Below are positions 1,270-46,225 of a DNA stretch of 64,000 nucleotides, piece after piece. Under the pieces are notes generated by a model. That model searched no databases. It saw only the letters and a list, made by a program, of their open reading frames with translations, and was not told the origin of the DNA. Position numbers and translations under genes: made by a program. Origin of the DNA: Ornithinicoccus hortensis (GTDB lineage: Bacteria; Actinomycetota; Actinomycetes; Actinomycetales; Dermatophilaceae); NCBI RefSeq assembly GCF_006716185.1, contig NZ_VFOP01000001.1:806001-870000 (forward strand), in the 5' to 3' direction. Position 1 is the first letter of the stretch; every line of letters begins with the position of its first letter.

Positions 1270-3114
1270 TTAGCCGGCGTAGTTCAGCGCCTCCAGCGTG
1301 GTCAGCACGGCGCCGTCGACGGCGGCGGACCCGCCGAGGACGTGCAGCTCGGGCGCAGCCAGCCGCACGAGCTCCTCGCCGGTGACGGGCGGCACCTGGG
1401 CCTGCTGGACCAGCAGCAGCGGCTCGCCGAGCTGGCCGGCGCGGGCGGCACCGGTCAGGGCGTCCGGCCAGTCCTGACCGGTGGCCAGGAGCACCGACTC
1501 GGCACCCTCGTGGCGCTGGGCCAGTGCCGCGGCGGTCTCGTAGCGGTCCGTGCCGTAGACCCGCTGGACGAGGCCGAACGCCCCGAGGTCGGTCACCACG
1601 TCGTCGTCGATGGCGGCCGAGCCGCCGAGCACGGTGATGGTGTCCGGGTCGAGTTCGGTCAGCGCGGCAGCCGTCTCGTCCGGCACCTCGTCGGGGCGGA
1701 CCAGGAGCACCGGAGCGTCCACCGCGCCGGCGTAGGCCGCGGCGCTCAGGGCATCGGCGTAGTCCCGGCCGGTCGCGACGAACACCTCCGTGGCCCCGTC
1801 GAACTCGGACGCGACCGCGGCAGCGGTGCCGTACCGAGTCGAACCGGAGATCCGCTCCACATCCCCGGGCGTGAACCCGCCGAGCGTGGTCACCACGTCG
1901 TCGGAGACCGCAGCCGTGCCGCCGAGGACGGCGATCGACCCGGGCTGCAGCCGGGTGAGCTCAGTCGCGGTTTCCTCGGGGACGTCCCCGGGACGGACGA
2001 GCAGGACCGGGGAGTCCTGGCTGCCGGCCAGGGCCGAGCCGGCGAGCGCGTCGGCATACTCCCGGCCCGTAGCCACGTAAACGACCGGGACGCCGGGCTC
2101 GGTAGTGGACGAGACGGCGGCCGCGGTGGCGTACCGGTTCGGTCCGGAGACCCGGTCGACCTTCTCGGGGCCCAGGACGAGGTCGACCCGGTCTTCCCCG
2201 CCCTCGCCCACCGACAGGTAGCTCTCACCGGTGAAGACCAGCATTCCCTGGACGGTTGCTCGCAGGTCCGAGCTCTCGCCGTCGAGCACGTTCGGAAGAC
2301 CGCCATCGGGCAGCTGCTGACCCACCATCCAGTCGACGGACAGGTCGATGTCGTCGCCGACCAGCTCGAGCGCGGGGGCGACCAGGCCCGTGGTGTTCAC
2401 CGGGGAGAAGTTCTCCCAGTAGCCCTCCTCCGTCATGGCCTCCCGCAGGTAGTTGCGGACCTGAACGGCGGACGCGGTGGCGCCCTCCTGCTCGGTGACC
2501 GCGGCCAGCGCCGCGAGCCCGAGCCCGGACGCTTCGTTGTCGGGGACGAAGTCGTCCCCCGCGTAGTAGCCGAGAGCTCCCGTCTCGGGGTCCTGGTAGG
2601 TGAACATGTTCGTGACCGCGGCGGAGGGCACCTCGGCCCCTGCACGATCCAGACCCAGGATGCACAGCGCCTGGCCGAAGGCGTAGCCCCAGCTGCCACA
2701 CGTGCCGTCGTCACCGATGGAGCCCTCGACCGCGGCGATCAGGTCGACACCACCGAAGTCGGTGGCGTCCCGCCCGGTGACGGCGGCCACCAGGGCCACC
2801 TTCCCGGCGGCTGGTCCGCCGGCGCCGGCGTATGCCTGTGCCTGCGTTTCCAGCCAGTCGGTCATCGACTCGACCTCGGCGTCGTAACCGTCCACTGCCA
2901 GCAGGGCGAGGATGCCGTCGGCGGTGGCACCGGGGTCGCCGAGGTTGTCGTCCGAGATCTGCGATACGACGTAGTCGGCGGCGGCCACTGCCGCCGCCTC
3001 GTCTGCGGCGGGCGCCGGAGCCGGTGCAGCATGTGCGCTGACGACGGGTGTCAGGGGAGCGAGGAGCAGGCCGGCCGTTGCCACGAGACCGAGCCGGCGG
3101 GGTGTGAGGGACAT
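1270..3114 (-). CDS. secreted alpha/alpha-toroid protein with three cell-wall-binding CWB2 repeats (transcobalamin N-domain-like)
   Basis: 614 residues. ATG at 3114 follows a GAAAGG ribosome-binding site; a longer in-frame reading to 3261 would run through the riboswitch and is rejected. Residues 1-30 are a signal peptide ending in an AHA/AP-type site. Residues about 35-310 resemble the alpha-helical toroid shared by prenyltransferases, terpene cyclases and transcobalamin/intrinsic factor (helix-turn patterns ATADGILALLAVDG, EASGLGLAALAAV, NTTGLVAPALELVG). Residues about 319-614 are three CWB2 (PF04122) repeats, each starting with an RxxGxxRYxTA motif and ending with VLGGxAAV, which in other Gram-positives anchor proteins to secondary wall polymers. 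It follows a cobalamin riboswitch and sits just downstream of the ECF genes. Inference: a wall-anchored half of a B12-binding receptor. The ligand is not proven by sequence alone. Confidence 0.8.
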   Translation of the reverse strand: MSLTPRRLGLVATAGLLLAPLTPVVSAHAAPAPAPAADEAAAVAAADYVVSQISDDNLGDPGATADGILALLAVDGYDAEVESMTDWLETQAQAYAGAGGPAAGKVALVAAVTGRDATDFGGVDLIAAVEGSIGDDGTCGSWGYAFGQALCILGLDRAGAEVPSAAVTNMFTYQDPETGALGYYAGDDFVPDNEASGLGLAALAAVTEQEGATASAVQVRNYLREAMTEEGYWENFSPVNTTGLVAPALELVGDDIDLSVDWMVGQQLPDGGLPNVLDGESSDLRATVQGMLVFTGESYLSVGEGGEDRVDLVLGPEKVDRVSGPNRYATAAAVSSTTEPGVPVVYVATGREYADALAGSALAGSQDSPVLLVRPGDVPEETATELTRLQPGSIAVLGGTAAVSDDVVTTLGGFTPGDVERISGSTRYGTAAAVASEFDGATEVFVATGRDYADALSAAAYAGAVDAPVLLVRPDEVPDETAAALTELDPDTITVLGGSAAIDDDVVTDLGAFGLVQRVYGTDRYETAAALAQRHEGAESVLLATGQDWPDALTGAARAGQLGEPLLLVQQAQVPPVTGEELVRLAAPELHVLGGSAAVDGAVLTTLEALNYAG

Positions 3115-3128
3115 TGTCGGGGACCTTT

Positions 3129-3153
3129 CGAAGGGTGGCTGCGGCACCCTTCG
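3129..3153 (-). promoter_or_regulatory. hairpin next to the ribosome-binding site (candidate riboswitch expression platform)
   Basis: A perfect 9-bp stem (3129-3137 with 3145-3153, arm CGAAGGGTG) with a 7-base loop directly abuts and slightly overlaps the AAAGG Shine-Dalgarno of the gene starting at 3114. Together with the aptamer upstream this suggests ligand-controlled translation initiation. Confidence 0.6.
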
Positions 3154-3204
3154 GCGGGGATGGGGGCAAGGTCCCGCCTCCGGCTCGTCCCGCAGACCAC
3201 GGCG

Positions 3205-3315
3205 GTTCACATCGAGCCCAAGGGCCGGCAGGCATTCCGGCTCCACGCGGGGGCGTGTCACGGTTGCGGGTCAGCGCCGGAATCGCACCGGCTTCCCCTA
3301 CCTGTCCTTCGGTAG
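3205..3315 (-). promoter_or_regulatory. cobalamin riboswitch (copy 2)
   Basis: On the minus strand the core reads GGGGAAGCCGGTGCGATTCC, then GGCGCTGACCCGCAACCGTG, then a small CACGC/GCGTG stem, then the B12-box variant GAGCCGGAATGCCTGCC. These are the conserved blocks of the cobalamin riboswitch in the right order. The peripheral arm between CAACCGTGA and GAGCCGG is very short, so this is a compact aptamer. It lies between the ECF S-component stop and the toroid-CWB2 start and controls only that gene. Confidence 0.9.
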
Positions 3316-3319
3316 CCGA

Positions 3320-3325
3320 ACTCTA
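3320..3325 (-). promoter_or_regulatory. -10 box overlapping the S-component stop codon
   Basis: TAGAGT on the minus strand shares its first three bases with the TAG stop of the S-component gene and sits about 7 bases before the expected 5' end of the riboswitch. No convincing -35 is seen. Confidence 0.45.
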
Positions 3326-4183
3326 GCGCGACCGTGCTCCGGGCGTGCCGTCGGCGTCGAAGGTGGGGCGCACCCCGAACGAGGCGCGCCGCGCGGCCCG
3401 GCGGAAGGTCGCCAGTAGCGCCGGCCCGATGAGCACGATGGCGACGGCGTTGGTGATCGCCCGACCGGTGTCCCACCCGGCCGTGGAGGTCAGCAGCGTG
3501 AAGATCAGGAAGCGGTGCAGGTTCTCCAGGACCGGCGCACCGGGCACGTAGGAGATCGAGCCGTCGTAGTAGTCCAGGCTGGCCCCGGTGATGAACGGCC
3601 AGAACCACATGTTCATCAGCATGCCGAAGACGTAGGCGACGACCACGCCGTAGGCCGCGAGCATGGCGATCTCGGCCTTACCGGTCACCCGTCGCGGCAG
3701 CAGGCCGGCGCCCAGCCCGATCCAGGCGGAGCACAACATCTGGAACGGCAGCCAGGGCCCGACCCCGGCGGTGAGCAGCGCCGAGGCGAACATGGAGGTG
3801 CAGCCCAGCACGAACCCGAAGCCCGGGCCGAAGACGCGGCCGGCCAGCACCAGGACGAAGAACACCAGCTCGATGCCGGCCGTGCCCGCCCCGAGCGGGC
3901 GCAGGGCGGCGTTGACGGCGGAGAGGACGCCGAGCATGGCCAGCGCCTTGGAGTCCATGCCGCCCTCGCTGATCTGGGCGAGCACGATCAGCACCAGGAC
4001 CGGCAGGACCGCCATGAAGACGAACGGGGCGTCGGTCCCGTGCTGCATCGGGGACGGCTCGACCTGGGTGAACAACGGCCAGAGGAACATGGCCAGCCCG
4101 GCGACGGAGGCCAGGGTCAGGACGATCGCCGACCGGGGCCCGAGCCGGACGGCACGGACGGGCACGGCGGCCCGGGGGGTCAC
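3323..4183 (-). CDS. ECF transporter S component, predicted cobalamin/corrinoid specific
   Basis: 286 residues. GTG at 4183 overlaps the ATPase stop (GTGA) and follows a GAGGT ribosome-binding site. Six or so hydrophobic segments are visible, with a short polar N-terminus and a basic C-terminal tail. Length and topology fit the substrate-binding S component of energy-coupling factor vitamin importers, which bind substrate in the membrane and topple when docked on EcfT. The family is of the type predicted elsewhere as CbrT-like B12 importers; I assign B12 here mostly from context (cobalamin riboswitch at each end of the locus and transcobalamin-like partners), not from diagnostic residues. It is the last gene of a six-gene coupled operon. 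Confidence 0.75.
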   Translation of the reverse strand: MTPRAAVPVRAVRLGPRSAIVLTLASVAGLAMFLWPLFTQVEPSPMQHGTDAPFVFMAVLPVLVLIVLAQISEGGMDSKALAMLGVLSAVNAALRPLGAGTAGIELVFFVLVLAGRVFGPGFGFVLGCTSMFASALLTAGVGPWLPFQMLCSAWIGLGAGLLPRRVTGKAEIAMLAAYGVVVAYVFGMLMNMWFWPFITGASLDYYDGSISYVPGAPVLENLHRFLIFTLLTSTAGWDTGRAITNAVAIVLIGPALLATFRRAARRASFGVRPTFDADGTPGARSR

Positions 4184-5820
4184 GGGGAGACCTCGAGCGC
4201 GGTCCGGACGTCGTCCACGGTGAGCCACGGGGCGCCGAGCACCTTGGCCACCTGGGGGCCGAAGATCGGCGAGGCGGCGATGACGTCGGTGGCGGGCCCG
4301 TCGGCGACCACTTCACCCTCGGCCAGCACCATGACGCGGTCGGCGACGGCGGCCACGAACTCCACGTCGTGGGTCGCCACGACGACGGCCGTGCCGCCCG
4401 CGACCAGGCCGGTGAGGACCTGCGCCAGCTGGGCCTTGGCGCCGTAGTCCAGCCCCCTGGTGGGCTCGTCGAGCAGCATCACCCCGGGGGTGGCGGTCAG
4501 CTGGACCGCCAGCACCAGGGAGAGCCGCTGCCCCTCGGACAGGTCCCGCGGGTGCCGCGCGCCCGGGATGTCCGGCGCCATCCGGTCCAGCAGCCCACGG
4601 CAGGTGCCCGCGGCGGAGCCGGACTCCTCGTCCGCGGCACGACACTCGGCGTCGACGGTCTCCAGGTAGAGCAGGTCGGCCGCGCTCTGCGGGACCAACC
4701 CCACGAGCCGCCTCGCGTCCCGGGCGGACAGCGTGGCGGTGTCCCGACCCTCGACGGACACCGTGCCGGAGTGTCGCCGCCCGGAGCCCTGGACCGCCCA
4801 GAGCAGGGAGGACTTGCCGGAGCCGTTGCGGCCCATCAGCGCCGTCACCCGTCCGCGACGCAGTTCGAGGTCGACGCCGCCGACGGCGACCACGTCGCCG
4901 TAGCGGACCACGATCTGGTGCGCCCGCAGCACGACGTCCGCCCCGTCCGACGAGGGGTGTCGCACCGGTGTCGGCCTGCGGTCCTCCGGCACCCTGGCCA
5001 GTCGTTCCCGCAGTTCCGGCGCCCGGCGGCGGGCGTCGCGGACCGACAGGGGCAGCGGCTCCCAGCCGGCCAACCGGCCCAGCTGCACCACCGGCGGGGC
5101 CACCGGGGCCGTGCGCAGCTGCTCGTGCGGCTCCCCGTCGGTTACCCCGCCGCCACGATGCCCGTCCGGCGGGGTGACGACCAGGAGACGGTCGGCATAC
5201 TGCACCACCCGCTCCATCCGGTGCTCGGCCATCACGACGGTGACCCCGAGGTCGTGCACCAGGCGGGTGATCGCCGAGAGCGCCTCCTCGGCGGCCGTCG
5301 GGTCCAGCGCCGAGGTGGGCTCGTCGAGGACCAGGACGCGCGGGTTCATGGTCAGGACGGAGCCGATCGCGACGCGCTGCTGCTGACCGCCGGAGAGGGT
5401 GCGCAGCGGCCGGCGACGCAGCTCGGCGATGCCCAGCAGGTCGAGCGTCTCCTCGACCCGCTTGCGCATCACGTCCGGCGCCACGGCGAGTTGCTCCATG
5501 CCGTAGGCGAGCTCCTCCTCGACGGTGTCGGTGACGAACCCCGCCAGCGGGTCCTGACCGACCATCCCGACCAGGTGCGCGAACTCGCGCGGCGGGTGGT
5601 CCCGGGTGTCGACGCCGTCCACCGTGACCCGACCCGACAGGTGACCGCCGGTGAAGTGCGGCACCAGGCCGTTGATCGCCCGCAGCAGGGTGGACTTGCC
5701 CGCGCCGGTGCGGCCCACGATCAGCGCCAGCTCGCCCTCGGGGATCCGCAGGTCGACGTCCTGCAGCACCGGGCGTTCGGCCCCGTCGTAGGTGATGGTG
5801 ACCCCGTCGAACCGGATCAT
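4180..5820 (-). CDS. fused double ECF ATPase (EcfA-EcfA')
   Basis: 546 residues. ATG at 5820 overlaps the EcfT stop by 4 bases (ATGA); the upstream open frame to 7002 is EcfT read out of frame. Two ABC domains occur in one chain. Domain 1 (about residues 1-235) has Walker A GRTGAGKST, signature LSGGQQQR, Walker B VLVLDEPTSALD and the switch His in MAEHR. Domain 2 (about 310-546) has Walker A GRNGSGKSS, a modified signature LSEGQRLSL, Walker B VMLLDEPTRGLD and ATHD. Fusion of both ECF ATPases is common in actinobacteria. It powers the S component through EcfT. The two halves are not equivalent, which suggests one fully consensus and one degenerate nucleotide site. Confidence 0.9.
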   Translation of the reverse strand: MIRFDGVTITYDGAERPVLQDVDLRIPEGELALIVGRTGAGKSTLLRAINGLVPHFTGGHLSGRVTVDGVDTRDHPPREFAHLVGMVGQDPLAGFVTDTVEEELAYGMEQLAVAPDVMRKRVEETLDLLGIAELRRRPLRTLSGGQQQRVAIGSVLTMNPRVLVLDEPTSALDPTAAEEALSAITRLVHDLGVTVVMAEHRMERVVQYADRLLVVTPPDGHRGGGVTDGEPHEQLRTAPVAPPVVQLGRLAGWEPLPLSVRDARRRAPELRERLARVPEDRRPTPVRHPSSDGADVVLRAHQIVVRYGDVVAVGGVDLELRRGRVTALMGRNGSGKSSLLWAVQGSGRRHSGTVSVEGRDTATLSARDARRLVGLVPQSAADLLYLETVDAECRAADEESGSAAGTCRGLLDRMAPDIPGARHPRDLSEGQRLSLVLAVQLTATPGVMLLDEPTRGLDYGAKAQLAQVLTGLVAGGTAVVVATHDVEFVAAVADRVMVLAEGEVVADGPATDVIAASPIFGPQVAKVLGAPWLTVDDVRTALEVSP

Positions 5821-7025
5821 GCGGGAGCCTCCTCGTGGTCGTCCGTGCCGCGGCCGGGCATGGGCCTGCCGGGGGTGTCCCCGGAGGCCGTATGCCGATC
5901 GCGGGCCCTGCGCAACGCGTCCAGTGTGAGCGGGGCGGGTGGGGTGGCGAAGGCCGGGACCGCGCCGAGGAGGACGGCCACCACCATGGCGCCCGACAGC
6001 TGCGGCCACTGCAGCGGGCTGAGACTGGGGTTGATGTTGCTGGGATCGACGGCCAGCGTCAGGTAGACGGCGACACCGGCCGCGGCGCCGCTGCCCGCGG
6101 CCACGAGCTCGGCCAGCCCCCACCGGTCGGGCCGGTAGCGGGAGCGCTGCACCCGGCGGCCGGTGACCGCGAATCCGACGGCGGCCAGACCGAGGCCGAG
6201 GGCCAGCATCGGCATCCCGAGGTAGCGGGGTGTGGTCCCGTCCAGCACGCCGTAGATGCCGACGCACACCCCTACGAGCCCGAGGATGGTGCAGCTCCCG
6301 GCCAGTAGCCGGGCACGGGGCGGCACGTGCGCGGAGCGCCCGTAGCCGCGGGAGTCCATCGCCGAGGCCAGCATCAGCGAGCGGTCCAGGGCGTCCTCGA
6401 GGACCGGGATGACGATCCCCTTGAGGGCGTGCAGCCCCTTGCCGGACCCGCCGCGCAGGCTGCGGGCGCGCCGCACCCGCAGCACCGACTCGGCCAGCTG
6501 GGGGAACACGGAGATCGCGACGACCACGGCGGTGCCGACCTCGTAGAGCGCGCTGGGCACCGACTTCAGCAACCGCTTGGGGTTGGCCAGGGCGTTCGCC
6601 GCGCCGATGCAGACGATCATGGTGGCCAGGCGCAGGCCGTCGTAGAAGCCGCCCAGCAGCGCCTCCGCGGTCACCGGGCCGAGCAGCCGGATCCCCGCGG
6701 CCCACGCGGGCAGCGGGATCTCCGGCAGGTTCAGCAGGATGTGGACCCCCTCGCCGCCGCCGAAGACGACCCGGAAGAACACCCGCATCAGCACCACGAA
6801 GGCCGCCACGATGCAGTAGAGGCGGAACGCCAGGGCCCAGGGGGCGTCCGTGCGGCGGGCCACGACCACGGTGGTCGCGACGGCGATGATGAGGCCGAGC
6901 AGCAGCGGGTTCGTGGTGCGGCTCGCGGCCGTCGCCAGCCCCAGGGCCCACACCCACCACGCGAACGGGTGGAGGGTCCGGGGCAACCAGTAGACGTGCC
7001 AACGGTCCGCCACGGGGGTTGACAC
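5817..7025 (-). CDS. ecfT: ECF transporter transmembrane coupling protein EcfT
   Basis: 402 residues. GTG at 7025 shares one base with the preceding stop (TAGTG) and follows a GGGAGGA ribosome-binding site; a longer frame to 7181 is rejected. Five or more hydrophobic segments are interrupted by a cytosolic helical region with two EcfT signature motifs, RARSLRGG and AMDSRGYGRS, which contact the two ATPase domains. A C-terminal extension of roughly 130 residues adds three more hydrophobic segments, longer than a minimal EcfT. Its neighbours on both sides are coupled by overlapping codons, so transporter and surface proteins are made together. Confidence 0.88.
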   Translation of the reverse strand: MSTPVADRWHVYWLPRTLHPFAWWVWALGLATAASRTTNPLLLGLIIAVATTVVVARRTDAPWALAFRLYCIVAAFVVLMRVFFRVVFGGGEGVHILLNLPEIPLPAWAAGIRLLGPVTAEALLGGFYDGLRLATMIVCIGAANALANPKRLLKSVPSALYEVGTAVVVAISVFPQLAESVLRVRRARSLRGGSGKGLHALKGIVIPVLEDALDRSLMLASAMDSRGYGRSAHVPPRARLLAGSCTILGLVGVCVGIYGVLDGTTPRYLGMPMLALGLGLAAVGFAVTGRRVQRSRYRPDRWGLAELVAAGSGAAAGVAVYLTLAVDPSNINPSLSPLQWPQLSGAMVVAVLLGAVPAFATPPAPLTLDALRRARDRHTASGDTPGRPMPGRGTDDHEEAPA

Positions 7026-8149
7026 TAGGTGGTCCTCCCGGACCGCCGCCGGGCGGCTGTGGTGCCGACGATGGTCAGGGCCAGGGCAGCCAGCAGGGTC
7101 CACCACACACCGGAGGGAAGGCCGAGCCAGCCCCCGCCGTCCGTCTCTGCCCCGGAGGCCAGTTGCTCCCCGCCGCTCCACGCGACGTCTCCGGTAGCGG
7201 CTGCGGCGTCGCCGGGGCCCGCCGTCCCGTCGGCGGACTCCGGTCCGGACGTGCGGGTCGCGTCCGCCGGCGCCGTGGCGTCTGCCCCGTCGCGGGGCTG
7301 TCGCGGCAGCGGCGCCGGACCGTCCGTTCCGGGGCCGCTCCCGTCGGCAGTGGTGGCACCTGGCTGGCCGGTGCCGCCGTCGGTGCCATTGCCCGTGCTG
7401 GTGTCGCTGCCGCCAGCGGCGCCGCTCCCACCGGCAGTGCTACCGGCGTCGCCGCCAGCACTGCCGGGGCCGTCCTGCCCCGGGTCGTCGCCGCTCGTCG
7501 AGCCGCCCCCGCCGGAGGTCTCACCCCCACCGGTGGGTACGGGATCACCCGCGCCGGGCGGGGTGGGATCGGCCGGTCGGGCCTGACGGACGGGGGTGAA
7601 CCGGGGGGCCGGGTTGGCGTCCGCCGTGGCGTTCAGCGAGAAGGACCAGCCCTCGAAGCCGCCCGCGACGGGGGTGCGGTTCTTCAGGCCCCACTGGGAG
7701 TACTGCCAACTGCCACCGTTGGTGGCGTGCCAGTAGGACCAGTAGGCGGTGGCGGGCGGGGTGTCGATGCACGACTCGGTGTATCCCTCGTCGCCGCGGA
7801 CCGGCAGCGCCTCGCCGGGCGACGGGGTGTTCTCGATCCGGCAGACGAACGAGTCGCCCCACCGGCGGACGCCCTCCATCTGGAACCCGGCGTTGCGGAG
7901 CACGTCCAGACCCGTCCCGTCCGCGGAGGGGGAGCACCGGACGATCACCTCGCCCGAGCCCACCTGCTGGAAGTCCACGACGACGGTGACGCCGGTGTCG
8001 TCCGGGCACGGGCCGGGTGTGCCGCGGGCGGGGTCGACGGCCGCGGCCGTCGGCGCGCCCCCCGGGGCGGTGAAGGGCCACCCGGTCGCGGTCAGCAGGA
8101 CGAACAGCACGGCCGCCACGGTCGCCAGGCCGGGTCGACGCCGGGTCAC
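7025..8149 (-). CDS. membrane-anchored DUF4430-like protein (transcobalamin C-domain-like)
   Basis: 374 residues. GTG at 8149 overlaps the upstream stop (GTGA). Residues 1-37 form a signal sequence, 48-183 a DUF4430-like domain, about 185-330 a Gly/Ser/Thr/Asp-rich flexible linker, and 345-363 a C-terminal membrane helix followed by an RRR-containing tail. Four Cys (48, 72, 103, 127) match in order those of the paralogue at 10758-12266, suggesting two disulfides. Shared blocks include DTPPATAYWSYW and GGFEGWSFSL. DUF4430 is the bacterial counterpart of the small beta domain that closes over B12 in transcobalamin (family knowledge). Inference: a membrane-tethered B12 handover subunit on a long tether. 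Confidence 0.8.
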   Translation of the reverse strand: MTRRRPGLATVAAVLFVLLTATGWPFTAPGGAPTAAAVDPARGTPGPCPDDTGVTVVVDFQQVGSGEVIVRCSPSADGTGLDVLRNAGFQMEGVRRWGDSFVCRIENTPSPGEALPVRGDEGYTESCIDTPPATAYWSYWHATNGGSWQYSQWGLKNRTPVAGGFEGWSFSLNATADANPAPRFTPVRQARPADPTPPGAGDPVPTGGGETSGGGGSTSGDDPGQDGPGSAGGDAGSTAGGSGAAGGSDTSTGNGTDGGTGQPGATTADGSGPGTDGPAPLPRQPRDGADATAPADATRTSGPESADGTAGPGDAAAATGDVAWSGGEQLASGAETDGGGWLGLPSGVWWTLLAALALTIVGTTAARRRSGRTT

Positions 8150-10761
8150 GGGGCGGACCCCCCGGCGGTGCCGCGCCTGCCGGCGCTCACCCGGCCCAGG
8201 ACGAAGGCACCGGCCGCGACCAGCAGCCCCAGCAGGCCGAGCAGCCACCCGGACGGACCGTCGGCAGGCGCGGAGGGTGGCGCGGCCGCGGGAGCCGCGG
8301 CGGTCGTCGCCGCAGCGTCGTCGGCGCCGGTGGCGGACGGGTCGACGGTGGTCGCGGGCAGCAGGAGGCCGTCCGGAACAGTGAGGTAGGAGGAGCCGGC
8401 CAGGGCCGGCAGGGCGGCGACCGTGGCCTCACGGTCGGCCTCGCCGCCTTCTGCGGCCGGGAGCCCGGAGTCCTCGACCTGCTGCCCGATCAACCAGTCG
8501 GCACTGGGGGTGCCGTCGACCCCGACGGCGACCAGGCCCGCCGCGGCCCACCCGGTCACGGTCACCTCGGGAAGCTCCCCGGCCTCGAAGGCGCCGGCGT
8601 CCGAACGTGCCTGCACCAGGGCGGCGGCGGCCGAGCGCAGCGCGGTCGCATGGCCGGGTGGTCCGGTGGTGGGGTCGGTCGTGGCATTGAGCGCCTGGAC
8701 GGCCAGCCCGGTGACCGCGGCCGACCCCGCGGTGCAGCCGTCGTCCGGCTCCGCCGGGAACAGGCCGTCGGTGCACTGCTGGCCGGCCAGGGCCCGTGCC
8801 GCCGCCGCAGCCGCATCGTCCTGACCCGCGGCGGTGAGCGCGAGCACGGATACCGCCTGGCTCCGGGTGTCCGACTGGTCCCCGAGGTCGCTGGTGTCGG
8901 CCAGCCACCCGTCGGCATCCTGCTGGGCGACCAACTCGGCCGTCAGCGTCTCCGACGGTCGACCGGACAGCGCGCCGATGAGCACGAGGTCCGCCAACGG
9001 CCCGGCATACCGCGCGTCGTCCGCGTCGTAGGGCACCCCGTGGGCGTAGGCCGCCGCCTGGTCCTCCTCCAGCAGGAAGTCCGTCACCGGAGCCAGGTCG
9101 TCGACCGGGACGCCGGCGGCGTACAGCCCGAGCCAGGCCCGCGCCGTCGCGCCGTGGTCCACGAAGGTGGTGCCATCGACCTCGGTGCGCAGGTGGGTCC
9201 CCCCGACGAACTGTGCGGCGAGAAAGCCCGCCGCGGCGTCGACCCGGTCGCTTCCGGTGGACGTGAGCTCGAGCCCCTCGTCGGGGCCGGCGGTCTGGTC
9301 GGTGGCATCGTCCCCTGCCCCGGTGGGGAGGACGGCTGTCCCACCGGCGTTGCGCGGTGCCGGCCCCGCGACCGGACCGGACCCGCGGTCACCGGACGCG
9401 GCTCCCGTGGAGTCGCCGGGACCGGTCCCCGTGCCGGGCCCGGTCGCCCCCGGCGCAGAGGTCGCCGGCGGGGTGGTCGGGGTCGGCGGCGTCGGACCCG
9501 GTGCCGGTGTGGGGGTCGGCGCGGGCGTCGGGCTCGGAGACGGCGTCGGGGTGGGCGTCGGCTCCGGGGTCGGGAGGGGCGGGTCCGGCAGCAGGGGGTC
9601 CTGGCCGATCCGGCCGAACGGGACCGGCGCCAGGGCGAACACCGCCTGCGGGGTGCTCCGGCGCCACTGGTCCCGGCTCCCGTCGAGACCGGACGCGAGG
9701 GCCGCGTCGAGGTTCTCCCGGTCGTAGGCGATCCCGCCGACCTCGCCGGCCAGTGCGGTCCCGGCGACCCGGTCGGGGTCCAGGTGGAGGGTCGCGACCT
9801 GGCTCCGGCCCTGGGCCGCGGCGGAGTCCCGGCCCCCCGCGGTGAGCGCCTGGACGGCCAGCCCGGTGGAGTTGGAGTTCGGACCGTCGGTGCCGACGCC
9901 GCCACCGAACGAGCCGTCCTCGCGCTGGGCCCCCACCAGCCAGGTCAGGCCGGCGTCGATGTCGTCCTGGAGGCCGGACACCCCGGCGTCGCGCGCGGCC
10001 ATCAGCGCCTGGACCCCCATCGCGGTGCCGTCGACGTCGGGCGCGGACATCCCCGCGGCCTTGCCCCCGTCGCAGGTCAGTGCGGGGTTGCTGTCGTGGT
10101 CGTTGTTGTACATCCGGAAGTAGCCCTCGGAGCACTGGTACTTGTCGAGGAAGGTCACGGCCGAGTCCGGGAGGCCACCGGAGCGGGCGAGGCCGATCAC
10201 CGTCAGGGACTGAGCGAAGACGTTGCTGTCGTCCCGGCCCGGGGAGGAGACGATGCGGTCCTTGATCCGTCCGTGCTCCGCGTCCGCAGGGTCCTCGACG
10301 ATGAGCGACAGGGTGTCGGCGTGGACGTCCCTCCCGCCGAAGGCGTGCACGTCCACGCCGCTGACGACGCCCGCGACCAGCAGTTTGGCGGTCGGCCCGG
10401 CCAGGCGGGTGTCGGCATCGGGGTACCACGCCGGCCCGGCGTAGTCGGCCACGTGGGCGGCCAGGCCGGCGGTCACCTGCTGCGCGGCGGCGTCGCCGTG
10501 ACCGGTGGCGTGCAGCGCGAACAGCACGTCCGCGGTCAGGCCCCAGTCGGCCGCACCACCCGGCCCGGGCACCGCGCCCGTGCTCGGGTCGATCTGCCCG
10601 ATCAGCCAGCCGGCGGTCTGCGCCGAGCGGTCCGCGACGGACACCTGGGCGCCTGGGGCGTCCGACCCGTCGGGCGCGGCGACCGCCGCCACGGGGCCGG
10701 CGAGGAGCAGGCCCGCCGCCAGCCACCCGGCATACCGGGTCGTGGTCGCGCCACGCGTCAC
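8146..10761 (-). CDS. membrane-anchored protein with two alpha/alpha-toroid domains (tandem transcobalamin N-domain-like)
   Basis: 871 residues. GTG at 10761 overlaps the upstream stop (GTGA). A signal sequence (1-30) leads to toroid 1 (about 45-385), a Pro/Thr-rich spacer with TPEPTPTPTPSPSPTP-type repeats (about 390-440) and a Gly/Asp-rich stretch. Toroid 2 follows (about 500-805), then an Ala-rich linker and a C-terminal membrane helix (about 838-860) with a basic tail. Toroid repeats show the hydrophobic pattern also seen in transcobalamin and prenyltransferases (STGLAVQALTAGG, GTAMGVQALMAARDAG, VTGLAVQALNATT). No prenyltransferase zinc-ligand set is evident. It probably presents two ligand sites, or one site plus one structural domain, near the ECF importer. 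Confidence 0.78.
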   Translation of the reverse strand: MTRGATTTRYAGWLAAGLLLAGPVAAVAAPDGSDAPGAQVSVADRSAQTAGWLIGQIDPSTGAVPGPGGAADWGLTADVLFALHATGHGDAAAQQVTAGLAAHVADYAGPAWYPDADTRLAGPTAKLLVAGVVSGVDVHAFGGRDVHADTLSLIVEDPADAEHGRIKDRIVSSPGRDDSNVFAQSLTVIGLARSGGLPDSAVTFLDKYQCSEGYFRMYNNDHDSNPALTCDGGKAAGMSAPDVDGTAMGVQALMAARDAGVSGLQDDIDAGLTWLVGAQREDGSFGGGVGTDGPNSNSTGLAVQALTAGGRDSAAAQGRSQVATLHLDPDRVAGTALAGEVGGIAYDRENLDAALASGLDGSRDQWRRSTPQAVFALAPVPFGRIGQDPLLPDPPLPTPEPTPTPTPSPSPTPAPTPTPAPGPTPPTPTTPPATSAPGATGPGTGTGPGDSTGAASGDRGSGPVAGPAPRNAGGTAVLPTGAGDDATDQTAGPDEGLELTSTGSDRVDAAAGFLAAQFVGGTHLRTEVDGTTFVDHGATARAWLGLYAAGVPVDDLAPVTDFLLEEDQAAAYAHGVPYDADDARYAGPLADLVLIGALSGRPSETLTAELVAQQDADGWLADTSDLGDQSDTRSQAVSVLALTAAGQDDAAAAAARALAGQQCTDGLFPAEPDDGCTAGSAAVTGLAVQALNATTDPTTGPPGHATALRSAAAALVQARSDAGAFEAGELPEVTVTGWAAAGLVAVGVDGTPSADWLIGQQVEDSGLPAAEGGEADREATVAALPALAGSSYLTVPDGLLLPATTVDPSATGADDAAATTAAAPAAAPPSAPADGPSGWLLGLLGLLVAAGAFVLGRVSAGRRGTAGGSAP

Positions 10762-12266
10762 GGCCGCACCACGTACTGCTTCAGCTGGTTGAGGACGCTG
10801 TCGCTGACCGTGGTCGTGCCGCCCAGGACGATGATCGTCTGCGGGTCCAGCCGGCCCAGCTCCCTGGCCGTCTCCGGGGGGATCGTGTCCTGCCTGGTCA
10901 GCAGCACGGGGCCCCGGGTGCGACCGGCCAGGGCCGACCCCGCGAGGGCGTCGGGGAAGTTGGCGCCGGTCGCGACGTAGGCCACCGGCACGCCCGGGGT
11001 GAAACCGGTCCGGGAGACCTGCTCGGCCGTCCCGTAGCGGTTGGCGCCGCTGAGCCGGGTGACCGTCCCGGCGTGCTGCCGCAGCTGGGTGACCACCGCG
11101 TCGCTGATCACCGTGCTGCCGCCGACGACGAAGATCTGCGTCGGCTGCAGCCGGTTCAGTGCCGTCACTGTCTCCTGGGGGAGTTCGCCCTTCCGGGTGA
11201 GCAGCACGGGGACGCCCTGGCTGCCGGCCCGCGCCGAGGCGGCCAACGCGTCGGGGAAGTTGTCGCCGGTCGCCACGTAGACCCGCGTGGTGGAGACCGG
11301 GAACTGCCGGGAGACCTGCTCCGCGGTGGCGTAGCGGTTGGCGCCGCGGAGCCGGGTGACCGTCCCCGAGGTGTACTTCTTGAGGGCGGTCACCACCGGG
11401 TCGGAGACGACGGTGGAGCCGCCGAGCACGACGATCCGCTTCGGCTTGAGCCGCTGCAACGCTTCCACGGTCTCGGCCGGGAGCTCGTCCGGCGCGGTGA
11501 GCAGCACCGGCACGTCCTGACGCCCGGCCAGTGCTGACCCCGCCAGTGCGTCCGGGAATCCCCGGCCGGTGGCCACGTAGACGACGTCCACCCCGGTCAC
11601 GTACTTGCCCGCGACCTCCGCGGCCGTGGCGTACCGGGTGCTGCCGGAGAGCCGGTCGGCCAGCGGACGGACGGCCGCCGACCGTGGCGGCGGGTTGGTG
11701 GTGGCCGAGCGGTTCAGCGAGAAGGACCACCCCTCGAACCCGCCCGGGATCGCCGACCTGCTCGTGAGACCGACCGTGCTGTAGGTCCAGGCCGCGCCGT
11801 CGTCGGCATACCAATAGGACCAGTAGGCGTTCGCCGGCGGGGTGTCGACGCACGCCTCCCGGTAGGTGGGGTCGCCCTGGCGCGGGATCGTCTCGTCCGC
11901 GGCGGGCCGGCCGTCGAGCCGGCAGGCCATGGTCAGGCCCCACCGCTCCGTGCCGGTCATGTCCACGCCCGCCTCGCGCAGCGCGTCCCGTCCCGTCCCC
12001 GCAAAGTCCTTGCCTTCTGCGGGGCCGGGCGCGCAGCGGACGATGGTCTTCCCGTCGTGCCCCTTCCAGGCGCCGAGGTCCTGGAAGTCGACGACAACCG
12101 TCATGCCGTGCCCGTCCAGGCAGTAGCCATCGTAGCCCAGCGCGGAGTTCTGCTGCGGCGGCGCGTCGGGCCCGGTGTCGGTGGTGCTGGTGCTGCCGAC
12201 CGCGGGTGCGGCGGCGGCGAGGACCAGGGCCAGCGCGGCGGTGACGGCGCGGCGGATCGGTGGCAT
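10758..12266 (-). CDS. secreted DUF4430-like protein with three CWB2 cell-wall-binding repeats
   Basis: 502 residues. ATG at 12266 is the first gene after cobalamin riboswitch 1. Signal peptide 1-24; DUF4430-like domain about 45-195 with Cys49, 78, 115 and 139 and the blocks CVDTPPANAYWSYW and GGFEGWSFSL; then three CWB2 repeats from about 205 to the C-terminus (RLSGSTRYATA, RLRGANRYATA, RLSGANRYGTA, each ending in a VLGG/VVGG block). It is the wall-anchored partner of the membrane-anchored DUF4430 protein encoded two genes downstream. Together with the toroid-CWB2 protein it would rebuild, as two chains, the two-domain plan of animal transcobalamin. The B12 role is inferred from riboswitch, domains and transporter context. 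Confidence 0.82.
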   Translation of the reverse strand: MPPIRRAVTAALALVLAAAAPAVGSTSTTDTGPDAPPQQNSALGYDGYCLDGHGMTVVVDFQDLGAWKGHDGKTIVRCAPGPAEGKDFAGTGRDALREAGVDMTGTERWGLTMACRLDGRPAADETIPRQGDPTYREACVDTPPANAYWSYWYADDGAAWTYSTVGLTSRSAIPGGFEGWSFSLNRSATTNPPPRSAAVRPLADRLSGSTRYATAAEVAGKYVTGVDVVYVATGRGFPDALAGSALAGRQDVPVLLTAPDELPAETVEALQRLKPKRIVVLGGSTVVSDPVVTALKKYTSGTVTRLRGANRYATAEQVSRQFPVSTTRVYVATGDNFPDALAASARAGSQGVPVLLTRKGELPQETVTALNRLQPTQIFVVGGSTVISDAVVTQLRQHAGTVTRLSGANRYGTAEQVSRTGFTPGVPVAYVATGANFPDALAGSALAGRTRGPVLLTRQDTIPPETARELGRLDPQTIIVLGGTTTVSDSVLNQLKQYVVRP

Positions 12267-12272
12267 CGGGTA

Positions 12273-12352
12273 GACCTCGTTCCCCTGTTGGGTCGAGGTC
12301 CCCGGGTGCCGGGGGTGGTGGTGCCCGCCGGACTCCTCCCGCAGGCCTCGAC
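12273..12352 (-). promoter_or_regulatory. competing stems between riboswitch 1 and the first gene
   Basis: Three complementary segments exist: GTCGAGG (12346-12352), GTCGAGGTC read on the plus strand at 12292-12300, and CGAGGTC on the minus strand at 12273-12279. The middle segment can pair with the upstream one or with the downstream one, which covers the GAGG-type ribosome-binding site before the ATG at 12266, but not with both. That is the layout of a translational switch. Confidence 0.5.
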
Positions 12353-12354
12353 GG

Positions 12355-12470
12355 GTGTGTGGAGCGGGCCACTCCCGGGCATTCGGGCTCGCCGGCGACG
12401 GGTGTCTCCGGCCTACCGTTGCGGGTCAGCGCCGGACTCGGACCGGCTTCCCCCGTGGGTGGCGTGGTCC
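12355..12470 (-). promoter_or_regulatory. cobalamin riboswitch (copy 1)
   Basis: The minus-strand core reads GGGGGAAGCCGGTCCGAGTC, then CGGCGCTGACCCGCAACGGT, then a short arm and the B12-box variant GAGCCCGAATGCCCGGG. Block order and spacing match copy 2 and the cobalamin riboswitch family. It heads the six-gene operon that ends at 3323. Confidence 0.88.
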
Positions 12471-12474
12471 GGAC

Positions 12475-12480
12475 AGTCTA
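12475..12480 (-). promoter_or_regulatory. -10 box of the B12-uptake operon
   Basis: TAGACT on the minus strand lies about 7 bases before the expected 5' end of riboswitch 1, in the gap after the SRPBCC gene stop at 12504. No clear -35 is visible. Confidence 0.45.
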
Positions 12481-46084: not shown

Positions 46085-46225
46085 CGTCTCTGGGCCTCTC
46101 GGGTGAGTGGCCCGCGCTTGCGAGAACGCCGTATGGCGTCCCGCCAGGTCATCACCCGGGGCACCCCACCGCGAGTGGAGGGTTGCCGTCCAGCAAGCCG
46201 GGGCTCGAAGCTGGAACTCATGACC
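46085..46225 (-). promoter_or_regulatory. SAM-IV riboswitch
   Basis: The minus strand reads GGTCATGAGTTCCAGC, GAGCCCCGGCTTGCTGGACG, GCAACCCTCC, GGTGGGGTGCCCCGGGTGAT then GACC, the conserved SAM-IV pattern, with P1 closed by GGTCAT and ATGACC (46147-46225) and about 60 bases of 3' extension. It precedes metY-metX. Confidence 0.9.

Follow-up and report, generated by a model that had tools for sequence, protein, structure and literature searches.

Uptake of vitamin B12 is poorly mapped in Gram-positive bacteria. Burroughs et al. (2007; PMC1796856) predicted that secreted or wall-anchored proteins with SLBB domains, or with SLBB domains and an alpha/alpha toroid, act as B12 scavengers. According to the same paper, the operons concerned may code for a second such protein and also for CbiO and CbiQ, and their hosts usually do not possess key enzymes of B12 synthesis. 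As described there, the clade comprises low-GC Gram-positives, planctomycetes and some euryarchaea, not actinobacteria, and the word riboswitch is never used in the main text. Here, a cluster of seven genes is described from the actinomycete Ornithinicoccus hortensis, in which exported toroid and beta-grasp proteins accompany an energy-coupling factor (ECF) importer. It occupies one end of a stretch of 64,000 nucleotides (contig NZ_VFOP01000001.1, positions 806,001 to 870,000), referred to below as the window, and B12 uptake is its likely function.

Like the systems of Burroughs et al., the cluster combines exported beta-grasp and toroid domains with surface anchoring and with genes for an ECF-type ATPase and T component (PMC1796856). 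Unlike them, the present family has a beta-grasp domain that the Pfam DUF4430 model misses, its halves mostly lie in separate genes, and its outer pair is either unanchored or bound by CWB2 repeats. The predicted domain folds resemble those of animal transcobalamin, intrinsic factor and haptocorrin, and one relative, locus L086, also displays the one-chain order toroid then beta-grasp; in contrast to the animal proteins, the halves in the window are separate genes and the modelled orientation of L086 differs. ECF-CbrT of Lactobacillus delbrueckii is likewise an ECF importer for B12, with an ECF module common to other S components and its gene in the arrangement nrdJ-cbrS-cbrT-pduO (PMC5997447). 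Here, however, the T and A genes adjoin S, exported partners are encoded, and no sequence similarity to the solved CbrT was detected. The additional B12-binding proteins predicted here also recall BtuH, the surface B12-binding protein found in a B12 transport system of Bacteroidetes, the bacteria and the importer being different (PMC8941943).

A preliminary description of this DNA had stated that no system with this layout was known. This was too strong, the general idea of such scavengers having been predicted in 2007 (PMC1796856). The two-layer, separate-gene form nevertheless looks new: in the open-licence literature, no paper was found on an actinobacterial version, on SCO2321 or SCO2322 in B12 uptake, or on unanchored together with anchored pairs. 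The novelty lies in the actinobacterial families, in the placing of the halves on separate genes, in an outer pair anchored by CWB2 and in the pattern of soluble copies.

Organization of the cluster

All seven genes lie on the minus strand within window positions 1270-12480 and form a six-gene operon (p1, p2, p3, T, A and S, in which neighbours overlap by 1 to 4 bases) and a single gene, p7, each unit with its own cobalamin riboswitch (Table 1). This arrangement, already proposed in the preliminary description, was borne out by reading frames and by RF00174 matches, both of which reached or exceeded the gathering score of that model (31.5 bits). The match upstream of the operon equalled this score; it came from restricted and whole-genome covariance searches and was absent from the whole-window listing. 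The proposed S, fused A and T components were likewise supported by their Pfam matches, so that S, T and two ATPase domains all occur in one operon. At the NCBIfam level, A scored over the cut-off for cbiO and under it for ECF_ATPase_1/2.

The four other proteins (p1, p2, p3 and p7) displayed signal-peptide-like N-termini on hydropathy. Each half had been said to exist once with CWB2 repeats and once with a membrane helix; the anchors were found as claimed, but p2 holds two toroids instead of one. At the C-termini of p2 and p3, a hydrophobic helix precedes basic residues and no LPxTG motif is present. On hydropathy, the helix of p2 covers residues 836-861, and that of p3 reached the cut-off with an 18-residue window and missed it with a 19-residue one. 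Further matches of these proteins to existing models were under cut-off: SCO2322_fam for p1 (1.4e-05) and p3 (3.2e-07), SCO2321_fam for p7 (1.3e-11) and, in Pfam, Cobalamin_bind for p2 (0.0027). The two NCBIfam models, the nearest available, carry no function.

Table 1. Features of the cluster, in window coordinates (pLDDT, predicted local distance difference test; pTM, predicted template modelling score)
Feature	Position	Strand	Evidence or remark
Cobalamin riboswitch 1	12377..12453	-	upstream of six-gene operon; RF00174 31.5 bits, E 3.1e-06
p1: exported, DUF4430-like domain and three CWB2 repeats, 502 aa	10758..12266	-	CW_binding_2 3.4e-59 (Pfam)
p1 DUF4430-like domain (transcobalamin-C-domain-like)	11694..12170	-	jackhmmer family; aligned with modelled p3 domain
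p2: exported, two alpha/alpha toroids and C-terminal membrane helix, 871 aa	8146..10761	-	
p2 first toroid	9565..10704	-	family motifs kept
p2 second toroid	8338..9321	-	several conserved residues altered
p3: exported, DUF4430-like domain and C-terminal membrane helix, 374 aa	7025..8149	-	
p3 DUF4430-like domain	7613..8026	-	AlphaFold2 pLDDT 94.6, pTM 0.88
T: EcfT-like membrane component	5817..7025	-	CbiQ 2.3e-07 (Pfam)
A: two fused ECF ATPase domains, 546 aa	4180..5820	-	two ABC_tran stretches (Pfam)
S: ECF S component	3323..4183	-	ECF_trnsprt 4.1e-09 (Pfam)
Cobalamin riboswitch 2	3210..3335	-	upstream of p7; RF00174 40.4 bits, E 9.7e-07
p7: exported, toroid and three CWB2 repeats, 614 aa	1270..3114	-	CW_binding_2 3.7e-54 (Pfam); toroid family

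Predicted folds of the exported domains

The beta-grasp domain of p3 was modelled with AlphaFold2 on an alignment with 39 relatives (40 of the 100 beta-grasp domains, with p1 as row 2). The resulting model displays two strands, a helix, a hairpin and further strands; the helix (39-45) is followed by strands 50-53 and 57-64, which corresponds to the hairpin found after the helix in transcobalamin. Foldseek comparison with the PDB placed transcobalamin, haptocorrin and 3u7z, a Ruminococcus gnavus protein, at ranks 1-12 with probabilities of 0.96-1.00, the next match having 0.13. Template modelling (TM) scores were 0.44-0.52 relative to the query and reached 0.63 relative to single-domain targets. 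From this model, we read the domain as having the same fold as the transcobalamin C-domain, at a distance in sequence. The likeness put forward in the preliminary description thus held for the predicted fold and the Foldseek ranking, but not for the Pfam family: PF14478 (DUF4430) matched neither p1 nor p3 and only 1/40 family members (E 0.12). Filing the domain under this family was rejected on the failure of the profile, and a candidate for a true DUF4430 protein at locus L070 was not borne out by Pfam and was not used.

Both halves occurred on one chain in 9/120 loci outside the window (L037, L083, L084, L085, L086, L089, L111, L120 and L133). In L037, toroid, beta-grasp domain and CWB2 repeats share a single chain. 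The natural fusion of L086, from a Nocardioidaceae genome, was modelled on an alignment of 50 rows, only 2 of which span both domains; in a larger mixed alignment with many single-domain rows, toroid rows fell on beta-grasp columns, and the smaller set was used. The model (pLDDT 88.7, pTM 0.78) had transcobalamin as its top match in the PDB (1.6e-08), and among the 50 matches listed only transcobalamins and intrinsic factor aligned over at least 468 columns. Its toroid part is helical, with transcobalamins and cyclases as best fold matches, and the window toroids were assigned to this fold by their sequence homology with it. The toroid partner ascribed to the beta-grasp domain is real. Taken alone, the toroid does not tell a carrier from a cyclase.

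Two peculiarities were recorded among these domains. At L120 (3759-5565), a single frame carries a toroid, LAFTG with a membrane helix, and then the beta-grasp domain, so that a stretch resembling a sorting signal lies within a fusion. In p2, the second toroid departs, as does its counterpart in Amycolatopsis locus L074, from several residues that other toroids conserve; it may be structural or may bind something else.

Distribution and cobalamin control

Loci with T, A and S next to toroid and beta-grasp genes are widespread in Actinomycetota. The S component gave matches at E <= 1e-6 in 74/246 genomes of the phylum, own genome included. Among the best 80 of 567 confirmed loci, a set in which near relatives are over-represented, both halves were present at 63, the beta-grasp gene alone at 8, the toroid gene alone at 1 and neither at 8, and T, A and S occurred together in 76, the four exceptions being truncated or short loci. 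A distinct arrangement was observed at L052 (9508-13099) and L053 (9537-13015), in two genomes belonging to the same taxonomic order, where T, A and S matches share one frame of about 1015 amino acids beside a beta-grasp protein; that of L052 begins with a lipobox-like signal. Neither a toroid nor a riboswitch match was found at these two loci.

The 71 loci with a beta-grasp gene comprise 27 multi-copy and 44 single-copy ones. One class of copy stops at the domain or no more than 12 residues beyond it. With a shadow frame of L081 dropped and L091, which has no beta-grasp gene, left out of the multi-copy set, such domain-ending copies occurred in 16/27 multi-copy loci against 0/44 single-copy loci (Fisher 4e-09, kinship ignored), so that an outer pair is a layout that recurs. 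Loci of Micromonospora, Dactylosporangium and Virgisporangium (L115, L118, L130, L131, L142, L148 and L149) begin with unanchored toroid and beta-grasp genes, and a toroid gene of LPxTG type and a membrane-anchored beta-grasp gene adjoin T. In the beta-grasp tree, p3 fell among membrane-anchored copies (support 98/90) and p1, with weak support, near the unanchored copies of the Amycolatopsis type and near the copy of Ornithinimicrobium cavernae. Anchored and unanchored copies were clustered on this tree, with 12 changes of label where shuffles gave 26.9, a count that took in near-copies and a wrong label for p1 (the long frame of p2 spans p1, which is truly CWB2-anchored). The label "none" is also probably wrong, a helix being likely, for the second copy of L076 and for L095, L099 and L113. 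The window appears to be a case of this general two-pair layout in which the outer pair is fixed to the wall, and both anatomy and recurrence speak for capture in two layers.

Anchor types among the relatives were membrane helices, LPxTG- or LAxTG-like signals, SLH repeats (L040) and CWB2 repeats (the window and L037). In Tessaracoccus, two beta-grasp proteins (L127, at 5674, and L134, at 5973) stop straight after LPKTG, without the usual membrane helix.

Control by B12 was found to be common in the family by two approaches. A scan for the riboswitch core motif (matches with at most 2 errors, since allowing up to 4 gave 43 matches in shuffled loci) detected it at the cluster in 67/80 loci. There were 84 matches in all, 82 of them on the same strand within 500 nucleotides upstream of a cluster domain, against 1 in three shuffled copies of all loci (shuffled within 100-base blocks). 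A second set consisted of 40 loci from 38 genomes chosen among the 74 with an S-component match. Covariance search of these 38 genomes gave a riboswitch match somewhere in 34 and over cut-off in 25; matches fell within the stretch at 28/40 loci, 22 of them within 700 nucleotides upstream of a cluster domain and 6 at 1.4 to 6.7 kb.

The genome of O. hortensis itself encodes three B12-dependent enzymes (NrdJ, methylmalonyl-CoA mutase and a MetH B12 domain); CbiC and CobN, two markers of B12 synthesis, were not found in it, and neither was BacA. Three cobalamin riboswitches were found, two in the cluster and a third before nrdA, in a whole-genome search that scored 150 of 311 first-look candidates. 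The third (L001, 1501-1720 and 1857-3218; own genome 2694785) is a 97-bit match before the large chain of an NrdA-like ribonucleotide reductase and, with NrdJ also present, a B12-controlled choice between two ribonucleotide reductases probably exists in this genome.

Proposed function and alternative explanations

Taken together, the cluster is probably a cobalamin-controlled uptake system in which exported toroid/beta-grasp pairs work with a dedicated ECF module and the wall pair forms an outer capture layer. The exported proteins, as separate-gene relatives of the transcobalamin halves, would pair up and enclose a cobamide on the outer side of the membrane. There, p2 and p3, tethered to the membrane, would present it to the S component, for import by the dedicated T, fused A and S module, and the CWB2 pair p1 and p7 would constitute a second, outer layer held in the wall. 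Outer copies without anchor, as found in some relatives, are probably secreted freely. Ligand binding, pairing, the direction of transfer and repression of the cluster by B12 are what we infer, the last from the usual action of the cobalamin riboswitch class. A bolder and rather doubtful extension is that many actinobacteria make a two-chain "cobalophore", in which separate toroid and beta-grasp proteins come together on extracellular B12 and deliver it to the cognate membrane-anchored pair on the ECF importer, being either freely secreted (Micromonospora and Amycolatopsis type) or, as in the present genome, parked in the wall by CWB2. If so, the transcobalamin clamp might descend from two chains that closed when driven by their ligand, and B12 scavenging by secreted proteins would become a siderophore-like contest. 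The link to transcobalamin folds and B12 riboswitches in any case suggests a likely function for a gene set widespread in Actinomycetota. It also provides simple systems of two proteins in which to model the animal B12 clamp, and it opens to experiment the idea that B12 is competed for outside cells in soil.

A number of observations weigh against the proposed uptake system. Foldseek E-values of the p3 domain were 0.004-0.09 (best 0.0043, none <= 0.001), and the profile of its family, searched against PDB sequences, found no transcobalamin and a single chance match. The S component had no sequence match to the solved CbrT in single and profile searches of PDB sequences. Resemblance of predicted structures to transcobalamin was observed for each domain singly but not for their mutual orientation: L086 superposed on transcobalamin with a root-mean-square deviation of 19-22 A and TM scores on the query of 0.32-0.37. 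This orientation is weak evidence either way, since so few rows of the underlying alignment span both domains. As to distribution, 9/80 loci had no beta-grasp gene, 13/80 no core motif (8 of these 13 start within 1 kb of a contig end) and 12/40 no covariance riboswitch match. The separate-gene CWB2-bearing pair was seen at no locus other than the window. A match to the p1 domain occurred in 6/31 genomes of the genus, own genome included, and in six related clusters (five of the genus and one of the family) no beta-grasp or toroid gene carried CWB2, CWB2 frames of other proteins lying within the stretches of three of them. Finally, nine permeases of FecCD, the family of BtuC, scored over cut-off in the O. 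hortensis genome, where another B12 importer is possible. B12 and siderophore importers being indistinguishable here, the cluster need not be the sole B12 route. This caution fits a report that more than 90% of the organisms importing B12 have homologues of BtuFCD (PMC2667541).

The most serious competitor, a real possibility though somewhat short of an even chance, keeps the same uptake system and takes the second pair as no more than additional capacity or a store, without any ordered passage of B12 from one layer to the next. The prevalence of single-copy loci shows that one pair suffices, and the five other clusters of the genus each have one beta-grasp gene, adjoining T. The domain-ending copy is, however, never found alone, which suggests a distinct role, and the clustering of copies on the tree points the same way, a point weakened by the near-copies and wrong labels noted above. 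The cargo could also be a B12 precursor or another corrinoid (cobinamide, incomplete cobamides), or cobalt, instead of complete B12. A riboswitch reports control by cobalamin and not cargo, and cobalt importers, too, are built from parts of the CbiQ/CbiO type (PMC1796856). We consider this unlikely: with neither CbiC nor CobN found in the genome, cobalt for de novo synthesis is probably unneeded, and most of the proteins that the beta-grasp domain confidently matches in fold are cobalamin carriers.

The toroids might, alternatively, be terpene- or squalene-cyclase-like enzymes encoded beside a vitamin transporter. In sequence comparison, the toroid profile (from 34 of 103 toroid domains) matched squalene-hopene cyclases best (5.3e-31), with no transcobalamin among the 60 matches listed, and Pfam found SQHop_cyclase_C in 19 of the 34 members and Cobalamin_bind in 1. 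Terpene cyclases also superposed on the toroid part of L086 with higher TM scores than transcobalamin (up to 0.64 on the target). Yet DxDD, the catalytic motif of type II terpene (squalene-hopene) cyclases, is missing: DxDD[TS] was absent from 102/103 toroid domains, 82 of which carry DxD then another residue, and its only occurrence, in L076, is apparently at a different place. Moreover, p2 and p7 have the look of exported proteins, and in the nine loci listed above a toroid shares its chain with the beta-grasp domain. An enzymatic role was judged unlikely on the missing motif, and this explanation as a whole appears highly improbable.

Outside the cluster, the window also contains a SAM-IV riboswitch on the minus strand at 46109-46225 (115.5 bits).

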